NCBI GenBank assembly: GCA_017404545.1
Contig: JAFRCC010000005.1
Location: 70,227-134,226, forward strand
Direction of reading: 5' to 3'
DNA from: Clostridia bacterium
Lineage (GTDB): Bacteria; Bacillota; Clostridia; TANB77; CAG-508
DNA length: 64,000 nucleotides
Shown here: positions 38,288-60,569 of the stretch, piece by piece
Position numbering within the stretch: position 1 is the first letter of the stretch
Layout of the letters: every line of letters starts with the position of its first letter
The notes under the pieces: model-generated
What the model was told of the DNA's origin: nothing
The model's database searches: none
What the model saw: the letters and a program-made list of their open reading frames with translations, nothing else
Translations under genes and position numbers: made by a program

Positions 38288-38327
38288 AACCTAGGGAAAA
38301 AATACATTCAAAAGGAGGTTGAATTTA

Positions 38328-42358: not shown

Positions 42359-42727
42359 ATGAAGAAAACAGTAAAGATTTTAGCAATAGTTTTATTATCT
42401 ATTATGATGTTATTTGTAACTGTGCAACCAGTTAGTTATGCGAGGGATGCATCGGAGATAATTAATGAGGCAACCAAGGAGCCAACTGATAAAAAAGCTG
42501 ATACAAGTGGACTTAACAATGTTGCTCAAAATGTAATCAATATAATTTGGATTATTTCAATTATTGTAGCAATTGTTGTTGTTATGGTTATAGGTATTCA
42601 ATTCATAGTTGGTGGTACTCAGCAAAAAGCGGAATACAAGAAGGCATTAATGCCAGTTGCAGTTGGTGTTGGCTTAGTTGTATTTGGTACATCTATAGTA
42701 AAATTCTTATTCAGTATGAATGGATAA
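42359..42727 (+). CDS. Type IV secretion pilin 3 (uninterrupted)
   Basis: The third VirB2-like paralogue, 122 residues, in a single frame. It has a signal-like segment (about residues 5-26, ending PVSYAR), a hydrophobic helix WIISIIVAIVVVMVIGIQFI, a short basic turn QQKAEYKKALMP and a second helix. The turn aligns directly with the frame-corrected sequences of pilins 1 and 2. It contains no CGG codon. AAAGGAGG lies upstream of the ATG. Probably a subunit of the secretion pilus or a membrane channel ring. Confidence 0.82.
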   Translation: MKKTVKILAIVLLSIMMLFVTVQPVSYARDASEIINEATKEPTDKKADTSGLNNVAQNVINIIWIISIIVAIVVVMVIGIQFIVGGTQQKAEYKKALMPVAVGVGLVVFGTSIVKFLFSMNG

Positions 42728-43196: not shown

Positions 43197-43676
43197 ATGG
43201 GAACGTATAATATTCCAAGAAATACAAAAGGTGAAGGAAGACTTTTTTATATATTTTCAACCAAAGCACTATTGTGGACGGTTGGAGGACTTATGCTGGG
43301 GGTTGTTATAAAAACAATTCTAAAATACATAGGTTCACTATTTAAGGCAGCAGGTGCATTTAATATTGTTGGAATTATTTTAACAATTATACTTGCCTTA
43401 CTAGGTTTTGTAATTGGAACGTTTAAAATGCCAAAGAACGAAAGATTTGAGATAACCAAAAAAGCGGCTGGAATTGGCTTAGACAAAGTATTAATTGAAT
43501 CAATAAAATTTAAGTTAAATCGTGTGAAGCTATATGTATACGATACGGATGAACTTTCTAGAGAAGAAATTGAACATGAGCTGGACGAAAAAGAAAAGAA
43601 CGAAGAAAAAGAAGAAAAACTTAGAGCTGAGCAAATAGAAAAAGCAAATAGAAATAGAAGGGGGTATATCAGATAA
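43197..43676 (+). CDS. prgI: PrgI-family type IV secretion membrane protein
   Basis: The 159-residue product has two membrane helices (about residues 24-45 and 52-80) and a charged cytoplasmic tail. PrgI proteins of Gram-positive conjugation systems take the place of VirB3 and always sit just upstream of the VirB4 ATPase. The sequence opens with GTYNIPRNTKGEGRLFYIF, in line with that family. AGGAGG precedes the ATG. Its stop overlaps the next start by one base. Confidence 0.85.
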   Translation: MGTYNIPRNTKGEGRLFYIFSTKALLWTVGGLMLGVVIKTILKYIGSLFKAAGAFNIVGIILTIILALLGFVIGTFKMPKNERFEITKKAAGIGLDKVLIESIKFKLNRVKLYVYDTDELSREEIEHELDEKEKNEEKEEKLRAEQIEKANRNRRGYIR

Positions 43677-45019
43677 TGGATAACTTTTTATTATTAGCTG
43701 TTGCTGGAATACTTATTGTTGTTGCAATACTAGCAGCAGTACTTGTTTTTATGACAATGAAAGAAAAAAGCCAAAAGAGCAATGCATCAGGAGCTAAAAA
43801 AGTGGATGATGAATTGGAGACAGCAAGAGCAAAAAAATCAATGTTTAAATTTATGGAATTTGATGGCGTTGAAGATAACATGATAGTTCAAGACGGAGGA
43901 AAAAGATACTTAATGGTACTAGAGTGTAAAGGCGTTAACTACGATTTATTATCTGAAGTTGAAAAGAATGGTGTTGAGCAAGGTTTTATAAGTTTCTTAA
44001 ATGCCCTTAAATTTGAAGTGCAATTATATATTCAAACTAGAAAAGTTAATTTAGCCCAAAGCACAATGCGATACAGAGAGCGCTTAAAAATAATTGAAAT
44101 GGATATGAGGGAAGAAGAGCAAAAGTATCAAAACCTACTAAGAAATCCAAATGCGACCAGAGATGAAATTGTAAAAGGACAAAAAGAGGTAGCTAAAAAG
44201 AAAAATTTATATGAATATAGTAGAGATATTATAGAAAATACAGAGCAAATGAGTGAAGATGCAGACTTAACAACAAAAGAATACTACATAGTTGTTCCTT
44301 ACTACACAGATGAAATAACATCAGCAGGTGACTACGATAAAAGAGAAATAGGCAGTATGGCTTTCTCTGAATTATATACAAGAGCACAATCATTAGTAAG
44401 TGCGTTAACAGAATGTGATGTAAGAGGTAGAATATTAAATTCAAAAGAGCTTATAGAGCTATTATTTATTTCATATAATAGAGAGCAACACGATACATAC
44501 GATTTTGATGAATACATAGATAATTCTGGATACGACTCATTCTATTCGGTTGCACCAGATGTACTAGAAAAAAGAATGAAAGCATTAGATGATGAAATAG
44601 AGCGCAAGGCCAAAGATAAGGCAATTGAAGCATATAGAAGAGTAAATAGAAGAACAGAATTAAGAATTCAGGCAATTCGTGATAGAGAAGAAAATATGAA
44701 AGAATACATAAATCAATTAGCAGAAGAAGCCCTTGATTCACAGGCTAGTGTAATGGGAAAAAGCAAAGCGGAAGAATCGAAAAAAGAGCTTGAAGTTATG
44801 GATAAAGAGCTAGAAGAAAAGAGAGCAGCAAGAAAAGCAAAAATGGAAAGAGCTAATGGTGAAAATAACAACAATAATGCAGATGAAGAAGCAGCAAGAG
44901 CAGAAAGAGCTAAAAGAATAAATAATTTATCAAGAGAAGAAAAGATAAAATTAGCTCAAAGGCTTAAAAAGAAAAGAATGTTGAAAGAAATGGAGGCAAA
45001 GAAGAATGGCGAAAACTAA
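43676..45019 (+). CDS. Type IV secretion membrane protein of unknown family
   Basis: The 447-residue product has one N-terminal membrane helix (about residues 3-27) and a large cytoplasmic part. Residues 55-300 are mixed alpha/beta and contain a segment LMVLECKGVNYDLLSEVEKN. This recalls the N-terminal domain that VirB4 proteins of other systems carry fused to their ATPase. Residues 300-447 are strongly coiled-coil-like and rich in Glu, Lys, Arg and Ala. It overlaps virB4 by 14 bp, so equal production and direct contact with VirB4 are likely. The comparison with the VirB4 N-domain is my inference. Confidence 0.72.
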   Translation: MDNFLLLAVAGILIVVAILAAVLVFMTMKEKSQKSNASGAKKVDDELETARAKKSMFKFMEFDGVEDNMIVQDGGKRYLMVLECKGVNYDLLSEVEKNGVEQGFISFLNALKFEVQLYIQTRKVNLAQSTMRYRERLKIIEMDMREEEQKYQNLLRNPNATRDEIVKGQKEVAKKKNLYEYSRDIIENTEQMSEDADLTTKEYYIVVPYYTDEITSAGDYDKREIGSMAFSELYTRAQSLVSALTECDVRGRILNSKELIELLFISYNREQHDTYDFDEYIDNSGYDSFYSVAPDVLEKRMKALDDEIERKAKDKAIEAYRRVNRRTELRIQAIRDREENMKEYINQLAEEALDSQASVMGKSKAEESKKELEVMDKELEEKRAARKAKMERANGENNNNNADEEAARAERAKRINNLSREEKIKLAQRLKKKRMLKEMEAKKNGEN

Positions 45020-46964
45020 TTTATTAGGAAAGAAAAAAGATGACAATAGCGAGAAAGTTGAGCAAGAGCTTAAGAGACGTATTATTAGAAAGAAAACAAT
45101 AAAAGAAATGATTGCTCCAACAGGAATTGATGCCTCAAGCTTGGATCACATTGAAATTATCTCAACAACAGATAGATTTGCAAGAAGTTTTTTCGTTGCT
45201 AATTTACCACGTATGTGTACGTTCCCAGAGCTATTTAGAGATATGTACACGTTTGGAGATATAAATACTTCTGTTTATATTAATCCAATTCTTGAATCTA
45301 CATCTCAAAACGACTTAAACAGAACAATTAACGAGTTAGAAACAGAAAGAATTTTGGCAGAAGATAGAGGAAACATAAACAGAGCAAGATTGTTAGCGCA
45401 AAAAAGAATGGAAACAGAGCAACTAAGAGATGAAATTGCAGCAGGATTTAACAAAATGTTTGAAGCAACAATTGTATGTACACTATTTGCATACGATTTA
45501 AAAGATTTAGATACATACACACGTTTACTTTCAACAGAAATGGCAAAAAGTTTGGTTGATATAAAATCAGCCTGGGCGAACCAAGACGATGCTTTTAGAA
45601 GCAACTTACCATTAATGAGAAAAAAAATTAATGAAAAACATTTATTTGACAGGGAATCTATTGGAACAGTGTTCCCATTTACATCATCAGAAGTAGGACA
45701 TTCATCTGGAATACCACTTGGATATAACTTACAAACGGGAGTACCAATTTTATTTGACAATTTCCACGAGTCACTAACAAACTATAACATGGTTATATTT
45801 GCTAAATCGGGTGCCGGTAAATCTGTAACAATGAAAACTTTAATTTCTAGATCTGCCGTTTTAATGGGAATTGAAAGTTTGGCACTAGATGCTGAAGGTG
45901 AGTATTCAATTGTGGCCGAGAGTTTAGGTGGCACTAACGTTGTTATCAGCCCAAGCTCAGATACAATTATTAACCTTTTTGATATAGAGGTTGAAAACAT
46001 TAAAGATGAAATAACAGGAAGAGAGCGTGAAGTTCTTAATGTTGAAAGTAAAATAGAAGACGTTACACAAGCTCTTCTTACAATGGCAAAAGGTAGTACA
46101 AGAAGTAAAGAAGTAAACGAGCTTACAAAACAGATTATTGCAGAATCTGTTGGAGATGAATATGCAAGACTTGGTATTACAAGTGACCCTCAAAGCCTAT
46201 ATGTTAGCGAATCTGCAACAATAGTTGATGGTAGAATTGTAAAAGAAAAGAAAGAGCTTCCTACAATTGGAAGTTGGTATAGACAAATATGCGAAAAAGC
46301 TGCCAACAATACAAACTCAGATTACCAGTTCCACTATAGTTATTTAATAAAAGTTATGAAGCAGTATACAAGAGAATATGATGGTCAGATGGCTTATTTT
46401 GATGGTCAATCTACAATAGATTTACTTGACGAGTCTCCATTTATAAACCTTGATATTTCGCAGTTAGAGGAAAGATTTGCAAGACCACTTGCTCAGCAAA
46501 TATTACTTTCTTGGATTTGGGAGAAATATGTTAAGAAGAATAGTGAAGATAGAAAGAAAGCTAGGAAAAAACGTGTGCTTGTGGATGAGGCATGGATGTT
46601 ACTTCCATATCCAGAAGCTGTAGATTTCTTAAACACAATGGCAAGACGTGCCAGAAAAAGAAATGTATCTTTGTCTATAATTTCACAAAGATTCCAAGAC
46701 TTTTATGAGAAACAAGAAGTGCAAGCCGTTTTAACTTCTTCAGATACAAAGTTATTTTTAGCACAAGATAAATCTGAAATTGAATATGTAAAAGAAGTGT
46801 TCAAGTTGAGTGAAGGTGAAGCAAGCTTTTTAACTACATGCCAAAGAGGTCAAGGGCTTTTAAAAGTTGGACAAGATTCAGCTCTAATTTCTATTAGACC
46901 AACGGCTAAAGAGTTTGAGTTTATGGAAACTAACCTAAATAAGGTTGTAAGTAGGCAAAGATAA
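45006..46964 (+). CDS. virB4: VirB4-type secretion ATPase
   Basis: VirB4 is the core energising ATPase of type IV secretion. The 652-residue product has an N-terminal VirB4 domain (about 1-240) and a C-terminal RecA-like motor. Walker A is FAKSGAGKSVTMK (about 263-275) and Walker B is KRVLVDEAWMLL (about 522). The following ARRARKRNVSLSIISQRFQD is typical of the family. Cytoplasmic, at the inner face of the membrane. It is uninterrupted and has no CGG codon. Confidence 0.94.
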   Translation: MAKTNLLGKKKDDNSEKVEQELKRRIIRKKTIKEMIAPTGIDASSLDHIEIISTTDRFARSFFVANLPRMCTFPELFRDMYTFGDINTSVYINPILESTSQNDLNRTINELETERILAEDRGNINRARLLAQKRMETEQLRDEIAAGFNKMFEATIVCTLFAYDLKDLDTYTRLLSTEMAKSLVDIKSAWANQDDAFRSNLPLMRKKINEKHLFDRESIGTVFPFTSSEVGHSSGIPLGYNLQTGVPILFDNFHESLTNYNMVIFAKSGAGKSVTMKTLISRSAVLMGIESLALDAEGEYSIVAESLGGTNVVISPSSDTIINLFDIEVENIKDEITGREREVLNVESKIEDVTQALLTMAKGSTRSKEVNELTKQIIAESVGDEYARLGITSDPQSLYVSESATIVDGRIVKEKKELPTIGSWYRQICEKAANNTNSDYQFHYSYLIKVMKQYTREYDGQMAYFDGQSTIDLLDESPFINLDISQLEERFARPLAQQILLSWIWEKYVKKNSEDRKKARKKRVLVDEAWMLLPYPEAVDFLNTMARRARKRNVSLSIISQRFQDFYEKQEVQAVLTSSDTKLFLAQDKSEIEYVKEVFKLSEGEASFLTTCQRGQGLLKVGQDSALISIRPTAKEFEFMETNLNKVVSRQR

Positions 46965-47147: not shown

Positions 47148-49832
47148 ATGAAAAGAAGTATTTTTAGTAAACTAAAAAAATCTTTAATCGTAACAATGAT
47201 TTTTATTACGATAGGTATCGCGATGCCTAAAAAGGCCAAAGCAGATATAATTAATGATTTCGTAGATTTAGTTTTACATATACCGGATGGTGTTATGTAT
47301 GTTATCGATCATACATTTGGTGGATCAATTGAATTTACCAGTGAGGAATTAGATTTAAATAATGCTGATGATGGAGGAAGAGGTGAAGTATACAATTTTA
47401 TTGTTACACCATACGAAATTTTTTCTTCTGGAAGATATGTAGACTATGGGACTTTTTATGACACAAACATGGGATGGTTAGATATCAACTTTTTTCCTGA
47501 TAAACCCATTGTATCAGCTAATACTTCAGTTTCATCAGAAATACTAGCTCCTGTAGTAGGTAATATATATATATCATTAAGAAATTTAGCAATGGTTTTA
47601 ATGTTGTTAGTTATTCTATATATTGGTATTAAAATTTTAATATCAAGTATTGCTGCACAACAAGCTAAATATAAACAACTTTTAATGGATTGGTTAGTTG
47701 GTTTCTGTTTACTATTTATTATGCATTATATCATGTCAGGTATAGTAAATTTAAACACTATAGTTGTAAACTTATTAAGCAATGACGAAGGAGATTCGTA
47801 TTACATTGGCGTTTCAGAATTAAAAGGCCAATTTGGGGCAACATCTAGGTGGCTTGATGTGTTAGATGATAAAGATTCGATGCTAAATGGTAGTAGTTTT
47901 GAAAATTTTAAAAGGAACAGACTTATTGTAGAAGGCGGTGATAGTTCAACATCCGTTTATAGTGTAACGGAAAGTGGAGTTGATACTGGTTACTTAAATC
48001 TGAATGGACAAAATAATAGAGGATACAAGGGTGGTAGTGTAGACCTAAGCAAATGGGGCAAGAATGGAGAAATATATCTTGCAGCAACAATATATAATAC
48101 AGGGTCAGATCAACACAAAAATAAAGCAATTATAAAGTTGAATGCGATGAGTTATGTTAGAACAATATCTAGTTTCGCAAGCGGATCAGAATGGTTTAGT
48201 GGGGGTCAAAACAGAAAAGTTCATTTTTATGAGAATGCAACAACAATAGAGGCTTCATTATCAACCGCAATGGGATACTCCGCATTATATCTTTGTCTAG
48301 TTATTGAAACAATAATGTTTTTATTTACATATGTTAAGAGGGTATTACAAATGGCATTCTTGACTATGATTGCACCTATAGTAGCATTAATGTATCCTGT
48401 TGATAAAATTGGAGATGGTAAAGCTCAAGCTTTTAATACGTGGTTTAAAGATTATCTGTTCAATGTTTTAATTCAGCCAATGCATTTATTATTGTACACA
48501 GTATTTATTGTTGCAGCTGGAGAATTGATATCTAAAAATATTATATATGGTTTAGCTGTATATGGATTTATGATTCCAGCAGAGAAGTACTTTAAGAAGA
48601 TTCTTGGATTTGATAAGGCATCTACAGGTGGTGGTGGACCACTTGGAGGGGCAGTTGGCCATGGACTTGCAATGGATGGACTTGGAAAACTTGCTGGTAT
48701 CGGTCCTGCTGGAAGAGGCGGAAAAGGTGGATCTGGCGGAGATGGAAAAGGAAAATCTAAGATAAAGACAAAGAAAAACGAAGCTGGAAGTAGTCCTGCT
48801 CCACTCGGATCTGGCGAAGGCGGAGTACCTGGCGCATCAGGTGGTATCGGAGGTTCATCTTCAGCTGGCACAGGTGCAGGAGGAAGATCAGGGAATAGAA
48901 CAGCAGGAAGTAGGACAGCAGGGAATGGAGGAACAAATAGGAGAAATCCTAATGCTGGTGGTGCCAAACCAAGAAGTAGAGATAAAAGAGCTAGAGGTGT
49001 AATTGGCAAGAAGGTTGCAGGAGCACTAACTGGTGGAAAATATGACCATCTAAATACAAGAAATGGTTCTTGGGCTGAAGTTGGAAGACACGTATTAGGA
49101 AGAGGTCTAGGTAGAATGGTTACAAGAGGCGCAGGTGCGGTTTTAGGTGGAGCTGTAGGTGTAACAGCAGGTATTGCAACAGCAATGGCAACAGGCGATA
49201 TTAACAACATATGGAAAGGTACTGCAGTTGGAGCAGGTGCTGGAAATAAGATTTCATCTAACTTGTATGACAGAGGTGCAGATTTTGTAGAAAGCTTTGC
49301 TAGTGAAATGAAACAAGAACTTGCAAATGAAAATTCAGATGAAGGTAAAGAAATGACTCAAAGAATACGTAATGAAGAAGCTTTCGAAAAACTAGATGAT
49401 GATATCGAAATAATGGATGATGATAATCATGATTCAAGATTCAATAATCAAAGTGACAAACAAGTAGCAATTGATACAGTTAAAAGATATGCGCAATATG
49501 TTGATTTTGACAACATAAAAGATGTAAAAGCAATGACAAACATTAGAGCGGCATGTCGAGATGCTATGGGTGAACATGAGGATACTGCTGTTGAAATATT
49601 CAACGAAGCAAAAGGTTTTGATGTTGAAACACATAGATCATCTTTCTTAAGAAAGAAAATGAGACAGGAATTAGGGTCATCATTCGATGCCAAATTAATT
49701 GAAGATTTAGCATCAGGTAAAGTTAGTATAACAGATCCATCTATTAGCTCAAATACCAACCTTGTAAATGCGTACCGAAATGCTGTAGAACGTGCGGATC
49801 TTGTTGAAAGTGTACAACAAAAAATGAAGTAA
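47148..49832 (+). CDS. virB6: VirB6/TrbL-like polytopic channel protein
   Basis: The 894-residue product has a signal-like N-terminus (about residues 10-30, ending PKKAKAD) and a first membrane block near 140-205. An extracellular loop of about 170 residues follows. A second membrane block near 375-480 contains TYVKRVLQMAFLTMIAPIVA, typical of the VirB6/TrbL core. After it comes a long Gly/Ser/Arg-rich linker (about 495-620) and a charged C-terminal domain (about 700-894) that is probably cytoplasmic. The start follows AAGGAG. It begins a separate operon with the lytic and VirB8-like proteins. Confidence 0.85.
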   Translation: MKRSIFSKLKKSLIVTMIFITIGIAMPKKAKADIINDFVDLVLHIPDGVMYVIDHTFGGSIEFTSEELDLNNADDGGRGEVYNFIVTPYEIFSSGRYVDYGTFYDTNMGWLDINFFPDKPIVSANTSVSSEILAPVVGNIYISLRNLAMVLMLLVILYIGIKILISSIAAQQAKYKQLLMDWLVGFCLLFIMHYIMSGIVNLNTIVVNLLSNDEGDSYYIGVSELKGQFGATSRWLDVLDDKDSMLNGSSFENFKRNRLIVEGGDSSTSVYSVTESGVDTGYLNLNGQNNRGYKGGSVDLSKWGKNGEIYLAATIYNTGSDQHKNKAIIKLNAMSYVRTISSFASGSEWFSGGQNRKVHFYENATTIEASLSTAMGYSALYLCLVIETIMFLFTYVKRVLQMAFLTMIAPIVALMYPVDKIGDGKAQAFNTWFKDYLFNVLIQPMHLLLYTVFIVAAGELISKNIIYGLAVYGFMIPAEKYFKKILGFDKASTGGGGPLGGAVGHGLAMDGLGKLAGIGPAGRGGKGGSGGDGKGKSKIKTKKNEAGSSPAPLGSGEGGVPGASGGIGGSSSAGTGAGGRSGNRTAGSRTAGNGGTNRRNPNAGGAKPRSRDKRARGVIGKKVAGALTGGKYDHLNTRNGSWAEVGRHVLGRGLGRMVTRGAGAVLGGAVGVTAGIATAMATGDINNIWKGTAVGAGAGNKISSNLYDRGADFVESFASEMKQELANENSDEGKEMTQRIRNEEAFEKLDDDIEIMDDDNHDSRFNNQSDKQVAIDTVKRYAQYVDFDNIKDVKAMTNIRAACRDAMGEHEDTAVEIFNEAKGFDVETHRSSFLRKKMRQELGSSFDAKLIEDLASGKVSITDPSISSNTNLVNAYRNAVERADLVESVQQKMK

Positions 49833-49853: not shown

Positions 49854-50870
49854 ATGATTAGAGATTTTTGGATTAGTATTAATGAAAAATATCAAAGAAA
49901 TAAAACAGTAATCTGGTTTATTGTAATGGCTGTAACTTTATTTATAATAGTTACGCGAAATATGGATAAAATGGCTAGTTCAACCAGAGGTAGTAGTGTG
50001 AATTCTACTACCTCTGGAAGTGTTTCTAATGATGAGAAAATTGATGAGATTGTAAGCAAGACGGAAGATAATTACGAGCAAATAAAAGAGCAAATGCAAG
50101 ATGTTAATATTACTGAAGAAGATTGTATTAAGCTATTTGTTAAGTTATGTAATAGTGGCAAAGTAGATTCTGCATATCAATGCTTAACAAATGAGTGTAA
50201 GGAAGAATTATATCCAACAAAACAAGATTTTATAGATGAATATTATAGTGTTATTTTTAAAACCAGTAAGAATTACGAAATTACTGAAGTTAAAAATGAT
50301 ACTTATAAAGTAAAATATACTAACGATGTAATATCAACTGGAAATGAAACTAGTTCAAATAGTTCAGTAATTGACTATATTACAATTAAAAACGGAAAAG
50401 TTAGTATATCAAATTTCATCGGAAAACAAAGTATAAATATTACTTCAATTGCACCATATTTTACTATATATATTGATGAAAAATTGGTTTATATGGACCA
50501 TGAAATATACAAAGTTAGGGCAAAAAATAATACAAGGGCAGATATATATTTAAATGATGCAGATAATAGTAATTTATACCTAAAAGATTCATATAACAAT
50601 GTATATAGTATAGATACAAGCAGTATGTATGATAGTGATTATTTAATTACTTCTAAAACAGAAAAGAGCGTAGATCTTACATTTAATATTAATTATGCAG
50701 AAAATACACAAATAACAGAAATGAGTTTGGGAACTATGAAAATAGAAAATAAAGAGTATCTTGATAGTACATCGGAAGTGGTAAATCCACAAACGGGTAA
50801 TAGAGAATATGAAAAGGTAAAAACTAATTATCCAGAGCAATATAGCTGGAATATTAAATTTACAGAATAA
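49854..50870 (+). CDS. VirB8/TcpC-like anchored protein
   Basis: The 338-residue product has one membrane helix (about residues 21-36) and an extracytoplasmic part. The segment KLFVKLCNSGKVDSAYQCLT, followed by a TKQDFIDEYY segment, matches a repeated unit also found twice in the protein encoded at 59196. It resembles NTF2-like folds of VirB8/TcpC proteins. A perfect 13-bp inverted repeat lies within the coding sequence at 49984-50017. The most likely role is a scaffold around the channel. Confidence 0.7.
   Translation: MIRDFWISINEKYQRNKTVIWFIVMAVTLFIIVTRNMDKMASSTRGSSVNSTTSGSVSNDEKIDEIVSKTEDNYEQIKEQMQDVNITEEDCIKLFVKLCNSGKVDSAYQCLTNECKEELYPTKQDFIDEYYSVIFKTSKNYEITEVKNDTYKVKYTNDVISTGNETSSNSSVIDYITIKNGKVSISNFIGKQSINITSIAPYFTIYIDEKLVYMDHEIYKVRAKNNTRADIYLNDADNSNLYLKDSYNNVYSIDTSSMYDSDYLITSKTEKSVDLTFNINYAENTQITEMSLGTMKIENKEYLDSTSEVVNPQTGNREYEKVKTNYPEQYSWNIKFTE
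49984..50017 (+). repeat. Intragenic 13-bp inverted repeat
   Basis: CCAGAGGTAGTAG (49984-49996) and its exact inverse (50005-50017) flank an 8-nt loop in the Ser/Thr-rich linker of the VirB8-like gene. No T-tract follows. It would form a stable mRNA hairpin about 130 nt into the gene. Confidence 0.75.
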
Positions 50871-50897
50871 AATGCAGAATGAAAGGAGGTGACACAT

Positions 50898-53800
50898 ATG
50901 GAAGAAGATGAGAACAGAGGGCAAGTAAGCCAAGAATCAATGGAAGATTCAGCACAAAGTACTATGGATGCAATACAAACAGGTGCTAATGCTATTGATG
51001 ATGCAACAAGTGGTATTAGAGAAAAAGGCAAAAAGTATTTAGGTGATAAACTTAAAAGTACCAAAATGGGTAAAAAAGTGGAAAAGGCCAAAGCAAAAGC
51101 TAGAGCCGTTGCAGATGAAGCTGAAAAAGGAACTAAAAAAGTAGTAAAAGGTGCAACAACTCTAGGTACTGGAGCTGCATTATCTGGATTAGGAACTGCA
51201 ACGCATGCAGCTGGTGCTTCAATGAGTGCAGCCGGACAAGCAATTACGGCTTCAACATTAGGAATTGGAGCAGCCATTGGCGAAACAATGGATGCTATGG
51301 GTAAAGGAATGCAAAAAGCTGGTCAATCCATGGTTAAGGGCGGAAATAAACTTATGAAAAAGGGTACCGAAACCATGAAAAAGGGTACCGAACAAATTGC
51401 TAAGGCACCAATGGCAGAGCCTGGTAAATCGTCAAGCTCAGATGGTGCTGATGGACCAATTCCAAAACCAAAAATTCCTGGGATTAGTGGTACTGTAAAG
51501 AAAAATGGTAAGAAAACAGCAAAAAAGGTAAAAAAATTTATAAAAGAGCACCCATATATAGCGTTAGGAATTCTAGTAGTTATTATATTACTTGCTTTTA
51601 TAATATTTATGGTACTTGGAGTTTCATCTACAGTAAATAGAGGAAAATATGTTGAAGGTGACCTTTCAAATGTTCCATATGTGGTTAACCAATTAGCTGT
51701 ACAGAATATAGAAGTTTTTTCAGATGGAAGTGGAGGATACACGTATGGTTTTGTGGACGAAAATGGAAATCCACGTACATTTGATGAAACCGTAGACAAT
51801 ATATTAGAAATTTTAAAGAAAAATGAATCTAGTGCTCTTTCTGATATGGGAACAACAGATGATGAAAGAAAAGAATTTTTAAAACTATTAATTAAAGCTG
51901 AAGTAGCTACACAATATCCAGATTTAACAGTAGAAGGTACAGGAACATATAGCGATTTTTCAACAGCCTCTGGTATAACTGTTCAAACAACTGGAAAGGA
52001 CTTTGTTGTAGCAACAGATGCGGCAAATGCAGCAAATGTGCTAGATGAAGCAGGATTAACTGCCGCTGTTACTAATTCAGATTTAGGAGAGCAAGCAAAA
52101 CAAAATGTTTTAGGTGTAGTACCAGATTTAGTTAGACTTCAAGATCAATATAAGGTAAATGCAGTATTTTTAATTGCAGCAGCCAGAACAGAATCTGGAT
52201 GCGGTACAGGGTGGGATTTAATAGACCCAAGTACATATAACTGGCTAAGTGTTAAAGGTAGTGAAAATGGTGGTTATGTAGATAGAAACGGAACATCATG
52301 GAATAAGTTTAGTAGTTATGCAGAAGCTACGGAATCTTGGTTTAAATTAATAACGGGTAGTGATTACTATTTTAAAGCAGGAAAATATACTGTAAAAGAA
52401 ATAGCACCGACATATTGTAATACAGAATGGGGCGAAACAGTATGCAGATATATGGAAGAATTTTATGGTTATGCTGGTGCATCTAGTGACCGTGAGATTG
52501 CAGCTGTAAGCAATACTACTGTAGCAGCAAGTCCATCACAGAGCCAATCTAGTATAGCTCAATGGGGATGGGTAATACAAAACGAAGATATAAACGCATA
52601 TTATTACGAACATGGATATGGTAATATTACATATGATTCTCCATATGTAAATGGATACATAACTCAAGACGGAAAGAATTACATAGTTGTTTCAAACTCA
52701 ACTGGATGGTACATTGGACAAGGCGTACAATTGTATTCTGGTGGAGCATGGAACGATTTTAATATAAACTTATTGAAAAATCATGGAGTTGATACAAGCA
52801 ACATACAAGTAGGAAGTACGATAGATGCAAATGTTGTTGACTTAGTATCGCAAGAAATTTTTGAATATAAAAAGAATGAAATAAAAAGCCAGTCTATGGC
52901 AAAAGGATTAAGTTTAACAGAAAATCAAATAGTAGCATTGGTTGATATTTCGTACTTAAATGGTAACGTTGATGCGCAATTAAATAATATAGCAACATAC
53001 GGAGCAGATAGCGAAGAATTAGCAAATACTTCTGGTTTTGCGGCATGTAACGAAAATGATACACCAACAAGTAGAGAACAGGCTACATGGAAATTATTCC
53101 ATTACGGAAAATACGAAGCTAGAAGTGGAAATCCATACGATCCAAGTTACTTTGGTGGATCTCCAGCAGATTCTGAAGCAAGTACAAATTCTAATTCTGC
53201 AAGCAGTGGTAATGCTAGCTCAGGTACATCAAATAGTGGAATTGCGCAAGCTGGTGGAGTTGATGCAAATGGTGTTACAATTACATCTGGAGGAAATATA
53301 GACTTTTTAAATTACGCAATAGATTGTCATGCTCTAGTAAGAGAAGAAGAGTTCTACTATGGCCAGGGAAGATCGTTACCTGTAACAAGGAACGATAGGC
53401 TAGGGTACATAGATTGTTCTTGCTATGTATCAATGGCACTTGATGCATATGGGTTAAATGATTGGAGTAGTTATCCACACCAACTTACAGCTAGTGGTGG
53501 ATCACTTGTAGCATATGCAAGAGAAAAGAATTTTGATTTTATATATGAAGGTAGCGCATCTAGTATTAATGAAATTCCAGATATACAATCTGGAGATATT
53601 GTACTTATGCCGGGACATACACAAATATTTTATGGATATACAAGCTCGGGTGAATCTGTATGGTTAAACTGTGGTTCTACAGATAGTATTTTAAAACAAG
53701 AAGGTGATGAGCATGGCTGGTACGCTACACCTATAACTTATGTAATTAGGGTCCCTGGTGGATCTGGAAATGGATATTCTGGAAATAGATATTCAAGAAA

Positions 53801-56800
53801 AGCTGTACAGGTTTTAACAAATAACGAGGATAGTGTAGAAGGTAAGATTAAGATAAAGAGAAAAGATAGCTCTGGCAAAGAAATTTGGCTAGAATATATA
53901 GATGAAGGATCTTTCGATAGTATGATTCAGTCGAATAATTCAAATGTTATGAACTACTATACCTTGAAAAAAGGTGCATCAACAACTAATAATAGTGCCG
54001 GCAGTACAACTAGTGGTACAACAGGAAGTGCAACGTTAACTGGAAGTGATGCAAAGGAGCAAATTTGGAATTTTTTAATTGATAGTGGGCTTACAGAACA
54101 AGGTGCTGCTGGATTAATGGGAAATATAGAAGCAGAATCAGGATTTAACTCTATGTGTGTTGAAGATGATTGGGCTAGGTCCGACAGAATGGAATTTGAT
54201 ACAGAATATACAAGAAAAGTTGATAGTGGAGAGATTTCTGAGTCTACATTTGTAACTACAGGAGGAATTAATTCAGGAGATAAGGGGTATGGCCTTGTTC
54301 AGTGGACAACGCAAGATAGAAAGCAAAACTTATATAATTACGTTAAATCAAAGGGAACATCTATTGGCGATTTACAAACGCAACTAGAATTTTTAGTTCA
54401 AGAGCTCCAGACATCATATAGTGCTGTTTGGAATGTAATTACAACATCTAACGATATTAATGAGTGTAGCGATGTTGTACTTAAAAAATTTGAAATACCA
54501 AGAGATATTACTGGACAAACACCAAAAAGAAGACAAAATGCATCTAATATATATTCTACGTATATGGGAACAAGAACGCCTGGAAGTGGTAATAATACGG
54601 CTACGACAGGTTCAACCTCAACGAGTTTAAGCACAAATAACCAGAGCACAAGTAGTGTGGCAAACTCATCTGGAGCATCGAATACGATTGATGGAAATAA
54701 TTATCCGCTAGCATACTATGCAATGTGGCTAACACATGCTAGTTATAGCGGATGGGGAACTGTTGCATACCATTATGGATACGCATCTTCAGATTATCGT
54801 ATGCCAGATAAAGATCATATAAAAATTGAAAATGTTGAAGGATATAAGAACGTTGGACCAGGAGTTTTAATTGATAGCTCTTGTATAGAGAGATTTAAGA
54901 AATATGGTGTTGATGTATCTAATATGGGAGTAGGAGATATATTAGACGCAGAAATCGTAATGAAAGTTTCAATGGATGAATTCTTTGAGAAAATAGAAAA
55001 AGTAAAATCTCAAGCACAAAGCCGCGGTGTTACACTTACAGATAATCAAGCTGCAGCACTAGGAAGCTGTATGTATAGTACAGGTAATATTAATAGTTTC
55101 TGGAAGCTATATGACCAGTATGGAAGTGTTGAAGAGGCTGCGGAGCATTATACACATACTAGTGGAAATTCAGATGTTAGTGAGAGATTTTATCAAGTAG
55201 ATAGATCAATTACAGATAGTGAACTTGAATCAATGAAATCTCAAAATACTGATTTAGCAAAATCAGCTTCAAGATATTTAATGTTCAAGTATGGAGATAT
55301 TAGATCACCAAGAGAGAACTTTAATCAAGCGGCAGAAGATTTGAAATCTGGTAAACTAAAACTTGGTGGTGTAAATGGAAGTGCTAGTTCTTCAAGTAAT
55401 GCTACTACAACTACTCAAATTACTACAACTTCTAATAACACTACAAGTGCAGCAGCTGCTGCACCATCACCAGAGATGGCTTTATATAAAGGTGACGGAT
55501 ATGACTTTAATAGATTTTGGATTATGACCATAAGCTACGAAGATTGGGATGTATATTCTTATCGTATGAATTTACCAGATAATGTAACATACGAAGGTGG
55601 ATATAATGTAAAGAAGAAGATTTCAGAAGATAGGCAAACTTATATTGTTGGTAGAGATGAGCAAGGAAATCCTGACGTTGGTATGGGAGTATGGCTTGGA
55701 AGTGGAAGCAGTAATTTTGAAAGATTTGAAAGCCACGGAATTTCTGGTAGTAGTTTGGTACAAGGTTTCTTAGTATCGTGTGACATCACAGACCAAGTTT
55801 CTCAAGAAGAATTATTGGATTGTGTTGAAAAAGCTAGAAAAGATGCACAGAAGAATGGTGTAACATTAAAGGAATATCAGTTACAGGCTGTTGCAGATGC
55901 ATATTATAACTATGGTTCAAATGCTAAATCTTGTAAGAGTTTCTGGACATTATATAAGCAATATGGTGAATCTGATGAACTTGCAAAACAATGTGGAATA
56001 TTTAATTATGTGCCAGAAAATACAACATATGAATCACTTCAAAGCCTAGGCCATGGAACTTCAAGAAAATCATCGAGATGGATGTTATTCAAATATGGTA
56101 AGTATATACCAAGACATAAAGCTTATTATGGAAATGAATTAGAGCTAAATATAGCAGGAGCTACAACAGCAACAGTATCGTTTGATAACTTCCTATTCCT
56201 TGGAGATTCAAGATATGTAGGAGTTAAGAGCGAACTTGAGGCACTTGGAAGCAATGTTTCTGTATGTGCAGTAAGTAGCTCTACAGCAAAAGATTGGAGT
56301 AGTATAATTGATAGTGGATCTGGAACAGTTTTAAGTACAAGTATAACATTGCCAGATTCTGCATCTGGAGTTTCTGTAATGCTAGGAGCAAATTCTGGAG
56401 CATATCAAATTCCTGAATTAAAAGAAGTAATGGAAAAATTACATACAAGATATCCTAGTGCCAAAATTTACTTTAACAGTGTATACCATTTAGGCTCTAA
56501 TTACACATATGCAAATGTTGATGATACAATAGCAGGATATGATAGAGTAAACGAAGAAATGAAAACATTCTGTAGTTCAAATAGCGATTGGGCTGTGTAT
56601 GTAGATATTACAAATGGTTTACATGATGAAAATGGATATTTAAAATATCCAGATGATGAAGGAATTCACTTAGTAGGTGAGGGTAAGACAATACTGGTTG
56701 ATAACATTAAAACAAATATTAAAGGTGCAGTAAGTGCTACAGCAGCATCAAGTGCAAATAGTGAGGCTAGTGAAGGAACTGCATCTTCAAGTACATATGT

Positions 56801-59180
56801 TATAGCTGTTGCAAGTTACGACAAAAAAACAGTAACAAGTGTAGATTCATACCAGTATGCATATACAAAAGTTATATCTACAAATAGTGGTACAACTGGA
56901 TATGGCTCTCAATTTTCAAGTACGCCTGCTGGAAGAACAACATCGAATACAACGTTAACATACAAAACAAGTTACATAGATTATCAGCCAGCTGTAAAAA
57001 ATCATACAATGTTTTTTGATTTCTTGTGGGCATTATTTATAACGACAGGAAATAAAGGATTTATCCAAGAAATGGCCCAAGAAGCGATGGATAGTAAACT
57101 TGAGATAACGGTGTATGAAGATACAAAAGTAACGCAAAATGTTTCAACATCAACGCTACAACCAAAAATACAATACATGAAAGATGGAAGTACAGCATAC
57201 GAAGATCACTACAATGGAACAAACACAACTACTACAACAAACACGATAGTATCATCTAAGGGATGTTTAACTTTAGCAAATGTATGGAACATGGAATACG
57301 AAAATAATGCAAAATCATATAGTGAATTTAAATCAAAATCAAAGGAAAAAGTTAGGGAGAAAATTGAAGATGATGATAATATAGTAAAGATACTAAGAAA
57401 AGGTAATAGAGCAGACAGATTATCCAAAGAGTATTACTTATTAGAAAGAATGTTAGGAGACAATGCTCGTGTATCACATATGATTGATATATTTAAGTAT
57501 TATGTAGGTATTGCGCTAAAAGTGCCAAAAGAAAAGCTTGGAATTTCAACAAGTAATATTATAGATACAAACCTATTCGATCTAAGCAATTCAGAAAATA
57601 CATCCACGGTGAAAGTATTGTTGTACACTAGATTAAATATTTCAGAGTCTGAGAAAGAAATGATGTATAAAGCAGTTGAGCAAATGACAGCAGGTTTCCC
57701 AGATGACGATAAAAATACACAAAGAAAGAAATATATAGCATCTGTTATACTAAATAGAGCATTATCATCAAAATTCCCAGATAGTGTTGCAGATGTATTG
57801 AATCAAACGGGTCAATTTCCAAATTATGATCCAACAGCTCAATCTGCTGAAGCAACCTATTCGGATAGTACAAAAGCTGCTGTTGACGCAGTAATTCAAG
57901 GTGGAGATTGTGCTAAGTATAGTGTATACTTTAATACTCCATCTGGAGCAGAAAAGTTAAAATGGGATACTAAATACCAAAAGACATTTAACGATGGTGA
58001 TGAATCTGATAGTTCATATACGTACTATACGGATGATGCAATAGTTAAAGAATTACAATCATTTGAAGTAAGTGTGGCAGCCGGAACTACAATGCCTTCA
58101 GATACTGCACAAAAAATAGTAGCTTGGGCTGAGGCACAAGTTGGTAAATCTTCATTCTATAACAGCTACCAGAGCAAATCGCAAGTATCAACAAACTATT
58201 GTGCAGCCTTTGTAGAATGTGCATACTACGAAGCAGGACTTGGATATTATGGAGGTAATGCTATGGATTTACCTCATCCAAATCAAATACAATTTAATGA
58301 TGATGGAACAGTAAATTATTCTAAGATACCAGTGGGGGCAATACTTGTATCTAAAGGCGTACCAGTAGATGGCGTAGAATACGGACATGTATGTTTATAT
58401 GTTGGTAATGGATATGTAATTGAAGCTGGAGGAAGTACAATTCAAAAGAAACCAGTAGATGATTCTTTTGGTGGAAAAGGTCACAATTGCGCACCTTTCG
58501 TAGGATGGGGATTTGCAGTTGAAGATCAAGATGCAGCATATCAACAATTAGTAATAAAAATTGGTGGAGGAAGCGTTGGAAATTATCCTGAGGGATGGAC
58601 ACAAAACGAGCCACAGGGAAGCGAAGTAAACGCAACTGGTGTTGAAGGTTATTATGTTGCAAACGGAAGGCAATATGCTGTGTATGCCCAAGGTTTTAAT
58701 GATGTTTGGGGAGGTATGCCTTATTCAATGCAAACTTTTGGATATTCTGCATGTGGAGCAACATCAGTTGCAATTATTGCAAGCGCAGTAGATCCAACTG
58801 CTACTCCAATTGAAACGGCACAAGCTATATATAGTGGTTTAGGATTAACGTATGGAAGTAGAACCACAGCTGTTACATCTCACGAAGGTTTATCAAAAGG
58901 TTTGGACGCTTATGGTATAAAACATGAGTGGAGGTATAATGCAAGTACACAAGATGTTATTGCACATTTACAAAGTGGCAATCCAGTTATTGTAAATGTA
59001 CATAGTACAATAGGAAATAACTACTATAGTGGACATTATGTAACGCTATTAGGAATAAATGCTCAGGGAGAAATTCTACTAGGAGATCCAGCAGGTGGTG
59101 GAAATAACTCAGGATATTTCGATCAATCTAAGATTTTTCCACTACCAGAGCATGGAATATGTTTCATATATTATGACTAA
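50898..59180 (+). CDS. Giant multi-domain cell-wall hydrolase of the type IV system
   Basis: A 2760-residue protein, far larger than the VirB1/TcpG-type lysins of known systems. Approximate layout: 1-215 cytoplasmic Lys/Ala/Gly-rich region; 218-243 membrane helix; 395-525 glucosaminidase-like (AARTESGCGTGW); 550-740 lysozyme-like 1; 798-955 NlpC/P60-like (DCSCYVSMAL, GHTQIFYG); 1050-1225 phage-tail-lysozyme-like (LMGNIEAESGF, YGLVQWT); 1268-1471 lysozyme-like 2; 1534-1741 lysozyme-like 3; 1761-1945 SGNH esterase-like (FLGDSRYVG, EGIHLV); 2245-2365 SleB-like hydrolase; 2402-2541 NlpC/CHAP-like (NYCAAFVE, GHVCLYVG); 2582-2760 C39-like peptidase (YSACGATS, GHYVTLLGIN). Ser/Thr/Asn linkers join them. 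ATG 50898 is taken since AAAGGAGG stands 8 nt upstream. It could open all three bond types of peptidoglycan during apparatus assembly. Domain calls are by eye. Confidence 0.85.
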   Translation: MEEDENRGQVSQESMEDSAQSTMDAIQTGANAIDDATSGIREKGKKYLGDKLKSTKMGKKVEKAKAKARAVADEAEKGTKKVVKGATTLGTGAALSGLGTATHAAGASMSAAGQAITASTLGIGAAIGETMDAMGKGMQKAGQSMVKGGNKLMKKGTETMKKGTEQIAKAPMAEPGKSSSSDGADGPIPKPKIPGISGTVKKNGKKTAKKVKKFIKEHPYIALGILVVIILLAFIIFMVLGVSSTVNRGKYVEGDLSNVPYVVNQLAVQNIEVFSDGSGGYTYGFVDENGNPRTFDETVDNILEILKKNESSALSDMGTTDDERKEFLKLLIKAEVATQYPDLTVEGTGTYSDFSTASGITVQTTGKDFVVATDAANAANVLDEAGLTAAVTNSDLGEQAKQNVLGVVPDLVRLQDQYKVNAVFLIAAARTESGCGTGWDLIDPSTYNWLSVKGSENGGYVDRNGTSWNKFSSYAEATESWFKLITGSDYYFKAGKYTVKEIAPTYCNTEWGETVCRYMEEFYGYAGASSDREIAAVSNTTVAASPSQSQSSIAQWGWVIQNEDINAYYYEHGYGNITYDSPYVNGYITQDGKNYIVVSNSTGWYIGQGVQLYSGGAWNDFNINLLKNHGVDTSNIQVGSTIDANVVDLVSQEIFEYKKNEIKSQSMAKGLSLTENQIVALVDISYLNGNVDAQLNNIATYGADSEELANTSGFAACNENDTPTSREQATWKLFHYGKYEARSGNPYDPSYFGGSPADSEASTNSNSASSGNASSGTSNSGIAQAGGVDANGVTITSGGNIDFLNYAIDCHALVREEEFYYGQGRSLPVTRNDRLGYIDCSCYVSMALDAYGLNDWSSYPHQLTASGGSLVAYAREKNFDFIYEGSASSINEIPDIQSGDIVLMPGHTQIFYGYTSSGESVWLNCGSTDSILKQEGDEHGWYATPITYVIRVPGGSGNGYSGNRYSRKAVQVLTNNEDSVEGKIKIKRKDSSGKEIWLEYIDEGSFDSMIQSNNSNVMNYYTLKKGASTTNNSAGSTTSGTTGSATLTGSDAKEQIWNFLIDSGLTEQGAAGLMGNIEAESGFNSMCVEDDWARSDRMEFDTEYTRKVDSGEISESTFVTTGGINSGDKGYGLVQWTTQDRKQNLYNYVKSKGTSIGDLQTQLEFLVQELQTSYSAVWNVITTSNDINECSDVVLKKFEIPRDITGQTPKRRQNASNIYSTYMGTRTPGSGNNTATTGSTSTSLSTNNQSTSSVANSSGASNTIDGNNYPLAYYAMWLTHASYSGWGTVAYHYGYASSDYRMPDKDHIKIENVEGYKNVGPGVLIDSSCIERFKKYGVDVSNMGVGDILDAEIVMKVSMDEFFEKIEKVKSQAQSRGVTLTDNQAAALGSCMYSTGNINSFWKLYDQYGSVEEAAEHYTHTSGNSDVSERFYQVDRSITDSELESMKSQNTDLAKSASRYLMFKYGDIRSPRENFNQAAEDLKSGKLKLGGVNGSASSSSNATTTTQITTTSNNTTSAAAAAPSPEMALYKGDGYDFNRFWIMTISYEDWDVYSYRMNLPDNVTYEGGYNVKKKISEDRQTYIVGRDEQGNPDVGMGVWLGSGSSNFERFESHGISGSSLVQGFLVSCDITDQVSQEELLDCVEKARKDAQKNGVTLKEYQLQAVADAYYNYGSNAKSCKSFWTLYKQYGESDELAKQCGIFNYVPENTTYESLQSLGHGTSRKSSRWMLFKYGKYIPRHKAYYGNELELNIAGATTATVSFDNFLFLGDSRYVGVKSELEALGSNVSVCAVSSSTAKDWSSIIDSGSGTVLSTSITLPDSASGVSVMLGANSGAYQIPELKEVMEKLHTRYPSAKIYFNSVYHLGSNYTYANVDDTIAGYDRVNEEMKTFCSSNSDWAVYVDITNGLHDENGYLKYPDDEGIHLVGEGKTILVDNIKTNIKGAVSATAASSANSEASEGTASSSTYVIAVASYDKKTVTSVDSYQYAYTKVISTNSGTTGYGSQFSSTPAGRTTSNTTLTYKTSYIDYQPAVKNHTMFFDFLWALFITTGNKGFIQEMAQEAMDSKLEITVYEDTKVTQNVSTSTLQPKIQYMKDGSTAYEDHYNGTNTTTTTNTIVSSKGCLTLANVWNMEYENNAKSYSEFKSKSKEKVREKIEDDDNIVKILRKGNRADRLSKEYYLLERMLGDNARVSHMIDIFKYYVGIALKVPKEKLGISTSNIIDTNLFDLSNSENTSTVKVLLYTRLNISESEKEMMYKAVEQMTAGFPDDDKNTQRKKYIASVILNRALSSKFPDSVADVLNQTGQFPNYDPTAQSAEATYSDSTKAAVDAVIQGGDCAKYSVYFNTPSGAEKLKWDTKYQKTFNDGDESDSSYTYYTDDAIVKELQSFEVSVAAGTTMPSDTAQKIVAWAEAQVGKSSFYNSYQSKSQVSTNYCAAFVECAYYEAGLGYYGGNAMDLPHPNQIQFNDDGTVNYSKIPVGAILVSKGVPVDGVEYGHVCLYVGNGYVIEAGGSTIQKKPVDDSFGGKGHNCAPFVGWGFAVEDQDAAYQQLVIKIGGGSVGNYPEGWTQNEPQGSEVNATGVEGYYVANGRQYAVYAQGFNDVWGGMPYSMQTFGYSACGATSVAIIASAVDPTATPIETAQAIYSGLGLTYGSRTTAVTSHEGLSKGLDAYGIKHEWRYNASTQDVIAHLQSGNPVIVNVHSTIGNNYYSGHYVTLLGINAQGEILLGDPAGGGNNSGYFDQSKIFPLPEHGICFIYYD

Positions 59181-59195
59181 AAAGGGGGTTTTATT

Positions 59196-60569
59196 ATGAG
59201 GAATAGTAAAAAGAAAATAATACTTGCTATAATAATATTATTAGTTGCAGTTGTTATTATCTTGATTGTTGGAAAAAAGAAAAAAGAGCAACCTTATAAT
59301 GAAACTCCTGTAGATATATATGGAGAATATCAAAAGAATAGAGAAACAGAAGGAAAATCTGCAAAAGATGAGGTCGCACGTGAGGAAGATAATATGAATG
59401 AATATATGACAGTGCAAAGTATTGTAAGCAAGTTCAATAGAAATGTATTGTATTTGAATGCTACAGCAGAAGATTTAGATTTAATTGTTACGAAAAATCA
59501 AGAAGCAAATGTACTTGCTAAATATAAGCAAGAAGGTACAGACTTTATAAAAAATGTTTTAGCTCCAAATTACAAAACCAAATATTCTGTGGATGACAAA
59601 TACATAAACAATATGTTAGCAAATTATTCAAAGTTGAATTACGTTATAACAGATATGTATGTTATTGAAGATTCGGAATATATAAATACATATTTTGTAT
59701 ATGGATTATATGGAGAAACAGAATTTAACTTTATAATAGTACTAGATAGGTATAATAACACATACCAAATATATTTAAACAATTATTTTAAAGAGCAAGG
59801 ATATTCAAAATCTAATATTAATTCAATGAAAACATTGAATATTTCTAGTATAGAAAACAATGGCAGCAATACATTCCAATACAGAAATATTGAAAGAGAG
59901 CAAGTTGCTCAAATATATTATGATGAATACCTAGATATTATAAAAAATAATAAAAAAATTGCATACAATATGCTCGATTCTGAATACAAAAAAGCAAGAT
60001 TTGATACGATTGAAAAGTTTAATGATTATGTGAAAAATCTTCCTACTGGAAATAAAGCCAGAATGGCATCGTATACAATAACTCAAGGTGATGGATACGA
60101 TGAGTATTTGTGCAAAGATGCGCTGGGTAATAACTTTATTTTTAAAGTTACTGGCGCAATGAAATATTCGGTAATATTAGATACATACACAACTAATGTT
60201 TTAGCATATGAAAATGAGTATAAAAATGCAAGCGCTGAGAAGAAAGTGAAACTTAGTTTTAATAGATTCTTTGAATGCATAAACAATAAAGATTACGAAA
60301 GAGCATATGGTTATTTAAATAAAACATTTAGAGAAAATGAATTTCCAACACTGGATGAATTTAAACAGTATGTTGAGTCAAATTGGTTTAATGTAAACAG
60401 CTTTACTTATCAATCTATGGAAGTAAGCGTAAACGAAACATATAGTGTATATGGAACGATTCATGATTATGAATTAGAAGGTAGTTATGATGCAGGATTC
60501 TTAAATAAAACATTCTATATTAAATTGGGTTCAGACTATAATAACTTTGAAGTTTCATTTGGAAAATAA
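59196..60569 (+). CDS. Membrane-anchored protein with two VirB8-like repeats
   Basis: The 457-residue product has an N-terminal membrane helix (about residues 8-24). Two copies of an NTF2-like unit follow in the C-terminal half, one around residues 245-285 (YDEYLDIIKNNKKIAYNMLD) and one around 350-395 (FNRFFECINNKDYERAYGYL, then a segment with FPTLDEFKQYV). The same unit occurs in the protein at 49854. This architecture is like TcpC/VirB8 scaffolds of Gram-positive secretion. It begins 15 nt after the hydrolase gene with AAAGGGGG upstream. Confidence 0.72.
   Translation: MRNSKKKIILAIIILLVAVVIILIVGKKKKEQPYNETPVDIYGEYQKNRETEGKSAKDEVAREEDNMNEYMTVQSIVSKFNRNVLYLNATAEDLDLIVTKNQEANVLAKYKQEGTDFIKNVLAPNYKTKYSVDDKYINNMLANYSKLNYVITDMYVIEDSEYINTYFVYGLYGETEFNFIIVLDRYNNTYQIYLNNYFKEQGYSKSNINSMKTLNISSIENNGSNTFQYRNIEREQVAQIYYDEYLDIIKNNKKIAYNMLDSEYKKARFDTIEKFNDYVKNLPTGNKARMASYTITQGDGYDEYLCKDALGNNFIFKVTGAMKYSVILDTYTTNVLAYENEYKNASAEKKVKLSFNRFFECINNKDYERAYGYLNKTFRENEFPTLDEFKQYVESNWFNVNSFTYQSMEVSVNETYSVYGTIHDYELEGSYDAGFLNKTFYIKLGSDYNNFEVSFGK

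Follow-up and report, generated by a model that had tools for sequence, protein, structure and literature searches.

How the type IV secretion systems (T4SSs) of Gram-positive bacteria pass one thick wall, let alone two, is poorly understood. Among the described wall-opening subunits, PrgK of the conjugative plasmid pCF10, a T4SS-encoded VirB1 protein of the DELTA class, combines an extended intracellular N-terminal part with a single membrane helix and three extracellular wall-hydrolase modules (LytM, muramidase and CHAP). Of these only the muramidase is reported to be active in vitro, and fully extended PrgK reaches approximately the middle of the wall (PMC11323569). TraG of pIP501 and Orf14 of Tn916, from the ALPHA/BETA VirB1 classes, are likewise T4SS wall hydrolases anchored in the membrane, and they too contain modules that cut glycan and peptide. 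They have two modules (TraG), have a short or no intracellular part and belong to mobile elements (PMC12857230). Described VirB1 homologs in general have one to three modules. Here we describe a gene for a 2760-residue lysin in a stretch of 64,000 nucleotides (the window) from a Clostridia bacterium (assembly GCA_017404545.1, contig JAFRCC010000005.1, positions 70,227 to 134,226, forward strand).

We read this lysin as the VirB1-type wall-opening subunit of a T4SS carried on the chromosomes of an order of gut Clostridia, with a probability of roughly 0.78. The PrgK-like assignment was made because the gene lies downstream of a VirB4 gene and is flanked by a VirB6-like gene and further T4SS genes; the row VirB4, VirB6-like protein, 338-residue protein, lysin and 457-residue protein recurs in relatives. 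Among the forms of this rapidly reshuffled wall-opening part of the T4SS, the lysin is the most extended. It resembles PrgK in its long intracellular N-terminus, single helix and several extracellular modules, and both proteins contain a module of the phage-tail lysozyme (phi29 gp13) family, represented in PrgK by MUR, its only module found active in vitro (PMC11323569). The proteins differ in module number, ten against three. The DELTA class is defined by three extracellular domains and an intracellular N-terminal domain; the lysin has the intracellular part together with ten modules and by that number falls outside the published VirB1 classes, yet it would work like a large VirB1. An earlier interpretation from the letters alone (the sequence-only reading) had proposed a membrane-anchored protein of this length with about ten wall-degrading or peptidase domains, against the usual two catalytic domains of known Gram-positive conjugation lysins. 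The open reading frame (ORF), the helix and ten hydrolase-like modules were all found, and ten is also well above the two or three modules given for described VirB1 homologs in a review (PMC12857230).

Gene, membrane anchor and module order

The ORF extends on the + strand from an ATG at 50898 to 59180 without internal stop. A GTG at 50889 would give 2763 residues, but the ATG is the likely start because it is directly preceded by AGGAGGTGA, a good ribosome site. Hydropathy analysis gave a single hydrophobic segment (residues ~217-243, maximum 3.45) with a K-rich stretch on its N-terminal side, and the predicted topology is that of a protein anchored by one helix (~218-243) with the positive side N-terminal. 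From the positive-inside rule we infer that the N-terminus is inside and the modules are outside. Outward from the helix the order is S1, GH73, GH24-like A, CHAP-A, J, phage-tail lysozyme, GH24-like B, GH24-like C, SGNH, U, SleB, CHAP-B and C39, which amounts to ten hydrolase-like modules and three conserved elements (S1, J and U) that match no hydrolase (Table 1). No Pfam or NCBIfam family matched by the lysin covers U, for which PDB sequence matches were none better than E 9 and the AlphaFold2 model stayed below a predicted local distance difference test (pLDDT) value of 60.

A recent internal duplication as source of the three GH24-like copies was ruled out: self-BLAST at E 0.01 returned the full-length match alone and there is no DNA repeat >46 nt. 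The three copies are old. Searching the PDB sequences with the whole lysin retrieved SleB alone (E 0.054), and a pattern search of genome contigs for relatives gave 19 pattern matches, of which 0 were confirmed. One record of a plasmid collection matched, in the tail-lysozyme stretch only, and the 17 matching records of a phage collection covered single modules (tail lysozyme 16, C39 1). A phage endolysin or tail lysin was rejected on the basis of these single-stretch matches and of the neighboring T4SS genes.

Table 1. Positions of lysin elements and of T4SS-related genes in the window (aa, residues of the lysin; HMM, hidden Markov model; TM, transmembrane helix).
Feature	Coordinates	Strand	Basis
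Cytoplasmic N-terminal region, A/K/G-rich, aa 1-217	50898..51548	+	Translation, hydropathy
Single membrane helix, aa ~218-243	51549..51626	+	Hydropathy; N-in orientation inferred
S1, conserved non-catalytic scaffold element, aa 253-344	51654..51929	+	Family HMM
GH73 glucosaminidase-like cassette, aa 403-523, E432	52104..52466	+	Pfam, congener Pfam, LytB fold, E432 conservation
GH24-like lysozyme module A, aa 561-745, with E563, N600 for D and Y605 for T	52578..53132	+	Family HMM; weak 7m5i endolysin fold match; alignment with short relatives
Putative CHAP/NlpC-like cassette A, aa 807-940, C840, H907, N924	53316..53717	+	Family HMM, residue conservation
J, conserved non-catalytic scaffold element, aa 978-1024	53829..53969	+	Family HMM; G982 17/17, R988 16/17
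Phage-tail-lysozyme cassette, aa 1049-1222, E1080	54042..54563	+	Phage_lysozyme2, phi29 gp13 fold
GH24-like module B, aa 1282-1472, without E and D	54741..55313	+	Family HMM, alignment
GH24-like module C, aa 1546-1741, E1548 and D1587 kept, T->D1593	55533..56120	+	Phage_lysozyme 1.6e-4, alignment
SGNH esterase-like cassette, aa 1760-1942, S1771, N1832, H1924, acid ambiguous E1921/D1920	56175..56723	+	PAF-AH and OatA fold matches
U, conserved ~250-aa non-catalytic scaffold domain, aa 1985-2230	56850..57587	+	Family HMM
Putative SleB/Hydrolase_2 cassette, aa 2236-2374, E2261	57603..58019	+	Pfam 2.2e-10, E2261 conservation
Putative CHAP/NlpC-like cassette B, aa 2398-2548, C2435, H2497	58089..58541	+	Pfam, family HMM, congener Pfam
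Putative C39-like peptidase cassette, aa 2580-2747, C2619, H2713, D2730	58635..59138	+	Pfam 2.7e-12, residue conservation
VirD4 coupling ATPase, 6.3 kb downstream of dnaX	25392..27029	+	T4SS-DNA_transf 3.5e-77
Pilin-like protein	42359..42727	+	NF045849 1.9e-4, below cut-off
PrgI/VirB3-like protein	43197..43676	+	PF12666 E 0.0039, below cut-off
VirB4-type ATPase	45006..46964	+	TraG P-loop 4.2e-16; CD1110-family VirB4 1.4e-60, below model cut-off
VirB6-like polytopic protein	47148..49832	+	Weak pLS20_p028 / Mbov_0396 matches; 5 hydrophobic segments
Single-TM protein (338 aa) before the lysin, positional VirB8 candidate	49854..50870	+	Synteny in relatives
Single-TM protein (457 aa) after the lysin, positional VirB8-like candidate	59196..60569	+	Synteny in relatives

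Module identities and catalytic residues

Three Pfam families scored above their curated cut-offs in the lysin, i.e. Phage_lysozyme2 (2.4e-33), Peptidase_C39_2 and Hydrolase_2/SleB, and a fourth, Phage_lysozyme, barely passed (22.5 vs 22.3 bits, a margin of 0.2). The three GH24-like and two CHAP/NlpC-like copies were detected with HMMs built from the lysin family; since these were built from the same sequences and searched in small sets, their E-values are optimistic. AlphaFold2 models were compared with PDB folds. The GH73 model matched LytB (Z 17.8, root-mean-square deviation (rmsd) 2.4, 153 aligned), the tail-lysozyme model phi29 gp13 (Z 16.6, rmsd 2.1, 139 aligned), and the SGNH model both PAF-AH (Z 18.5) and the OatA catalytic domain (Z 18.1, rmsd 2.2, 152 aligned). 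For GH24-like A the match to the T4-type endolysin 7m5i was weak (Z 7.5, rmsd 2.9, 119 aligned) and alone could reflect a common arrangement. Structure prediction and active-site inspection, as advised with the sequence-only reading, thus bore out three folds, with a weak result for GH24-like A and low confidence for CHAP-A and SleB. The assignments of SleB, CHAP-A, CHAP-B and C39 rest on sequence.

Catalytic residues were counted over all rows of each iterated alignment, some rows being other copies within the same protein. The GH73 glutamate E432 was kept in 15/15 rows, and E1080 of the tail lysozyme in 11/14, the remaining rows being, by eye, C-terminal fragments that stop short of it; these are the two glycan-cutting domains that have both a catalytic residue and a fold match. 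CHAP-A retained C840 in 13/14 and H907 in 14/14 rows, CHAP-B C2435 in 19/21 and H2497 in 20/21, C39 C2619 in 15/17 and H2713 in 17/17, and SleB E2261 in 5/5. In SGNH, S1771 and N1832 were each found in 10/11 rows, and H1924 is present in the lysin, not in every row. The GH24-like triads were judged against three short relatives (L038, L061 and L062) with a canonical E...D...T arrangement; residue roles follow T4 lysozyme, and the SGNH blocks carry their usual names. In that alignment module A keeps E563 and has N600 and Y605 in place of D and T, module C keeps E1548 and D1587 with D1593 replacing T, and module B has neither E nor D and is probably non-catalytic by this comparison. At least one and up to three of the lysozyme-like modules are probably weak or non-catalytic.

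By alignment, the tally over the ten modules is therefore seven with intact catalytic residues, two partial and one lost. Non-catalytic folds or loss of active-site residues in most domains, which would have spoken against a multi-enzyme chain, were not what we found.

Some observations on individual cassettes were made in other proteins. In a congener (G001) the CHAP-B copy lacks both Cys and His, as in a cassette decaying in place (L037, 8337-13877). Another congener (G015) encodes a 368-residue protein (L066, 4559-5662) whose helical N-terminus resembles WXG/LXG proteins by eye and whose C39 domain shares 47-48% identity with that of the lysin, which suggests that cassettes are shared with another secretion route. 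On contig C3 the window's own genome encodes a 617-residue protein (L064, 7571-9421) that starts with a signal-peptide-like segment; its C39 domain shares 47-50% identity with that of the lysin and has Ala for the catalytic Cys.

Cassette turnover on a conserved scaffold

Relatives of the lysin were collected from all our loci numbered from L034 up and from 80 of at least 499 confirmed VirB4 relatives in a scan of GTDB species genomes. The 80 kept bear the titles Clostridia, Clostridium sp., Clostridiaceae or Eubacteriales, with gut sites or animal hosts named in some of them. We dropped ORFs that were open-ended, shorter than 500 aa or devoid of a scaffold element, as well as rows whose ends were identical; four loci (L113, L114, L115 and L152) appear to be the same contigs as those of G003, G001, G010 and G040 in this pool. 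The resulting 81 complete, non-identical scaffold-bearing lysins have a median length of 968 aa and 32 cassette orders. Five contain no cassette, 27 one, 31 two, 10 three, three four, one six, two seven, one eight and one ten, so that one or two cassettes (58/81) is the usual state. The window lysin is the longest and richest; those next to it, with eight (G015), seven (G010 and G001) and six (G003), all belong to its genus. Cassettes are inserted between S1 and J, between J and U, inside U and after U. In 30 lysins Pfam showed further types, M23 (5), GH3 (3), M15 (3) and SLT (2), and because these were left uncounted the cassette numbers of relatives are lower bounds. G003 has an extra GH3 domain and G015 an Abhydrolase-like one. 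Two giant lysins (1918 and 1756 aa) lie close together on one contig of genome G024 (L039, 3169-8922 and 10749-16016).

An unusually thick or modified wall had been suggested as the reason for the many modules. The thick-wall explanation is weakened and explains little, because most relatives with the same machine use only one or two cassettes. Otherwise conserved machines carrying one to ten cassettes in 32 orders offer a natural experiment that bears on the enzymes required by a T4SS and on whose wall is cut, and the cassettes are a source of wall enzymes for work on gut Clostridia.

The closest copy, in G015, is 59% identical over 2415 sites, with a ratio of nonsynonymous to synonymous divergence (dN/dS) of 0.218 overall and 0.08-0.27 per region, values that indicate purifying selection and are rough since dS is near saturation. 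Between the same two genomes identity (dN/dS) was 97% (0.019) for VirB4, 89% (0.080) for VirD4, 85% (0.071) for DnaX and 53% (0.347) for VirB6. The cytoplasmic motors are nearly frozen and the surface parts diverge far faster; in this pair, the closest compared, VirB4 is even more conserved than DnaX. The G015 lysin aligns to residues 1-1226 and 1766-2760 at 58-63% identity, and the C-terminal block also occurs in the separate assemblies of G003, G010 and G001. That the ORF is an assembly or fusion artefact joining several genes has a negligible probability. Although the window comes from a draft assembly with 31 contigs, independently assembled congeners with the same arrangement rule this out.

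What we infer about enzyme activities, docking, the wall cut and cargo can be combined into a model. The N-terminus would lie in the cytoplasm and one helix would anchor the lysin, with S1, J and U as a conserved scaffold that may hold it at the channel and the hydrolase cassettes inserted between and after the scaffold elements. Glycan strands would be cut by GH73, the tail lysozyme, SleB and possibly GH24-like A and C, and peptide bridges by CHAP-A, CHAP-B and C39, while SGNH would strip off lysozyme-blocking acyl groups, for instance O-acetyl. Together these cuts would open a hole or duct across the wall at one spot. Of the GH24-like modules, B and perhaps also A and C most likely serve in wall binding, spacing or regulation. 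A chain of ten modules may reach further into the wall than PrgK does.

Chromosomal setting and alternative readings

VirB4 was matched at E <= 1e-40 in 76/96 relatives, all draft assemblies; in 74 it is of the window's type and 56-97% identical in the pieces listed, two genomes (G002 and G037) being left out with VirB4 only 30-32% identical. VirD4 was matched in 91/96 genomes and 49/49 genera. It lies on one contig with dnaX in 41 genomes, and in 34 of these the two genes are <=15 kb apart on the same strand. In a tree of 48 VirB4 proteins the families f4 and f5 each formed a single clade at 100/100. Family f1 falls into two clades that differ in having mostly a single VirB6-like gene or several, and the window's genus occurs in both, so that the history within f1 is not purely vertical. 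G015 has one copy of each, on contigs C3 and C9 (L034 and L058), with VirB4 97% and 69% identical to that of the window; at loci with the second type, VirB6-like genes are large and number several. The island occupies one chromosomal place, between dnaJ and an M16 peptidase gene, in at least four species (the window's own, G015, G003 and G001), and the three congeners share the order dnaX, dnaJ, VirD4, type III methylase/restriction pair, VirB4, lysin, M16 peptidase gene.

Relaxases, sought with PF03432, PF01076 and PF03389, were almost never close: only 1/153 matches lay within 20 kb of VirB4 (11.5 kb off, a partial match), and 34/74 genomes with window-type VirB4 had no match to any of the three. 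The window's contig (C13) has none either, MOBC, MOBM, MOBF and MOBH lying outside these searches, and PF02486 was found in 0/6 genomes tested. On present evidence the setting is probably a T4SS fixed on the chromosome throughout an order rather than an ordinary conjugative element. The conjugation apparatus of the sequence-only reading is thus doubtful, while its Gram-positive T4SS wall hydrolase stands. A similar situation is described for Patescibacteria, where a monoderm-type, chromosomal and lineage-wide T4SS, mostly without relaxase, is proposed to be co-opted; that lineage is a different one, its VirB1 homologs are mostly unlinked to VirB4, and no ten-module lysin is noted there (PMC12102498). 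Our literature search, which left most subscription journals and preprints outside its coverage, retrieved nothing published about this family of lysins or the T4SS of this order.

These data make it quite improbable that the protein is an ordinary, merely large lysin of a mobile integrative conjugative element. Such an origin would agree with the distant resemblance of VirB4 to the CD1110 family of conjugative elements, with relaxases elsewhere in the window's own genome, and with the second VirB4 of G015 and the two clades occupied by its genus. The common place of the island in four species, the single supported clades of f4 and f5, the near-universal VirD4, mostly close to dnaX where the two share a contig, and the scarcity of relaxase matches argue against it. 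The CD1108 family mobile element protein (NF045974) weakly resembles one relative near its membrane helix (L045, E 4e-4), with 2/30 members matching; it scored 20 bits against a cut-off of 100 and the window lysin itself gave no match. Scarcely more probable is a protein that is chiefly a weapon, attacking the walls of neighbors at contact, with cassette shuffling that follows the wall chemistry of prey or competitors. Its broad range of bond types, fast cassette turnover and rapidly diverging surface parts would suit this role, SGNH could de-acetylate foreign peptidoglycan, and the relaxase-poor setting makes a substrate other than DNA possible. However, the lysin is anchored in the membrane and nothing points to its release as a free toxin. 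No immunity gene was identified, both the scaffold and the syntenic place belong to a T4SS subunit, and most relatives make do with one or two cassettes.

A more serious competitor, although we still consider it unlikely, is that cutting is left to one or two cassettes while the majority bind the wall, adhere or regulate, as reported for PrgK and proposed for lactococcal Tra11/Trs15. This is supported by the single active module of PrgK (PMC11323569) and by inactive VirB1 homologs proposed as adhesins (PMC12857230); in our data the missing E and D of GH24-like B, the missing D of A and the degenerate congener CHAP-B point the same way. Against it, the key residues of the seven intact modules are mostly kept in nearly all rows and under purifying selection. 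Several points also weigh against the VirB1-type multi-enzyme reading itself. Because two of the three PrgK modules are inactive in vitro, the module count may overstate the number of enzymes. Glucosaminidase (24.5 vs 30.2 bits), Lipase_GDSL_2 (20.9 vs 32.9) and NLPC_P60 (18.2 vs 23) stayed below Pfam cut-offs in the lysin, although congener copies clear them (GH73 34.8, GDSL 39.3 and 36.7, NLPC 29.6 and 33.9 bits). CHAP-A and SleB were modeled with low pLDDT and their folds are unconfirmed, docking by S1, J and U is a guess from conservation, and the 338- and 457-residue neighbors gave no credible PDB sequence match, which leaves their VirB8 candidacy without fold evidence.

For the VirB1-type lysin in its order-wide setting we tentatively consider, as a possibility with less than even prospects, that the VirD4-VirB4 T4SS belongs to the core genome, is no longer mobile and serves contact-dependent delivery of DNA or protein into neighbors. 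The piercing enzyme would then shuffle cassettes in keeping with the walls crossed, the ten-module form being its most extended state. The lysin would be a large VirB1. Of wider reach, and worth following up, is the T4SS that a whole order seems to keep in its core genome together with a shuffling wall cutter. A T4SS probably fixed throughout an order of uncultured gut bacteria raises the testable question of what these bacteria transfer to each other.

Further observations concern the surroundings. VirD4 lies ~1-3 kb upstream of dnaX in f5 and mostly ~6-13 kb downstream in f1, which places a T4SS coupling ATPase in the neighborhood of a core replication gene. The variable part among the four islands is the slot after VirD4. 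In the window it holds (28426-33082) a gene for an FHA-domain protein followed by one for a 1263-residue FtsK/SpoIIIE protein with one helix, for which no homologue was found in the fetched stretches of G015, G003 and G001; the pair could be EssC-like, as in type VII secretion systems, or a defence ATPase (PADLOC mad8/SspH-like matches). The lysin block is followed at 60596-62101 by a gene for a 501-residue protein without Pfam match, which among the loci compared occurs only in the same three congeners. The type III methyltransferase and restriction-helicase pair at 36569-40523 of the window is found at the same place in congeners.

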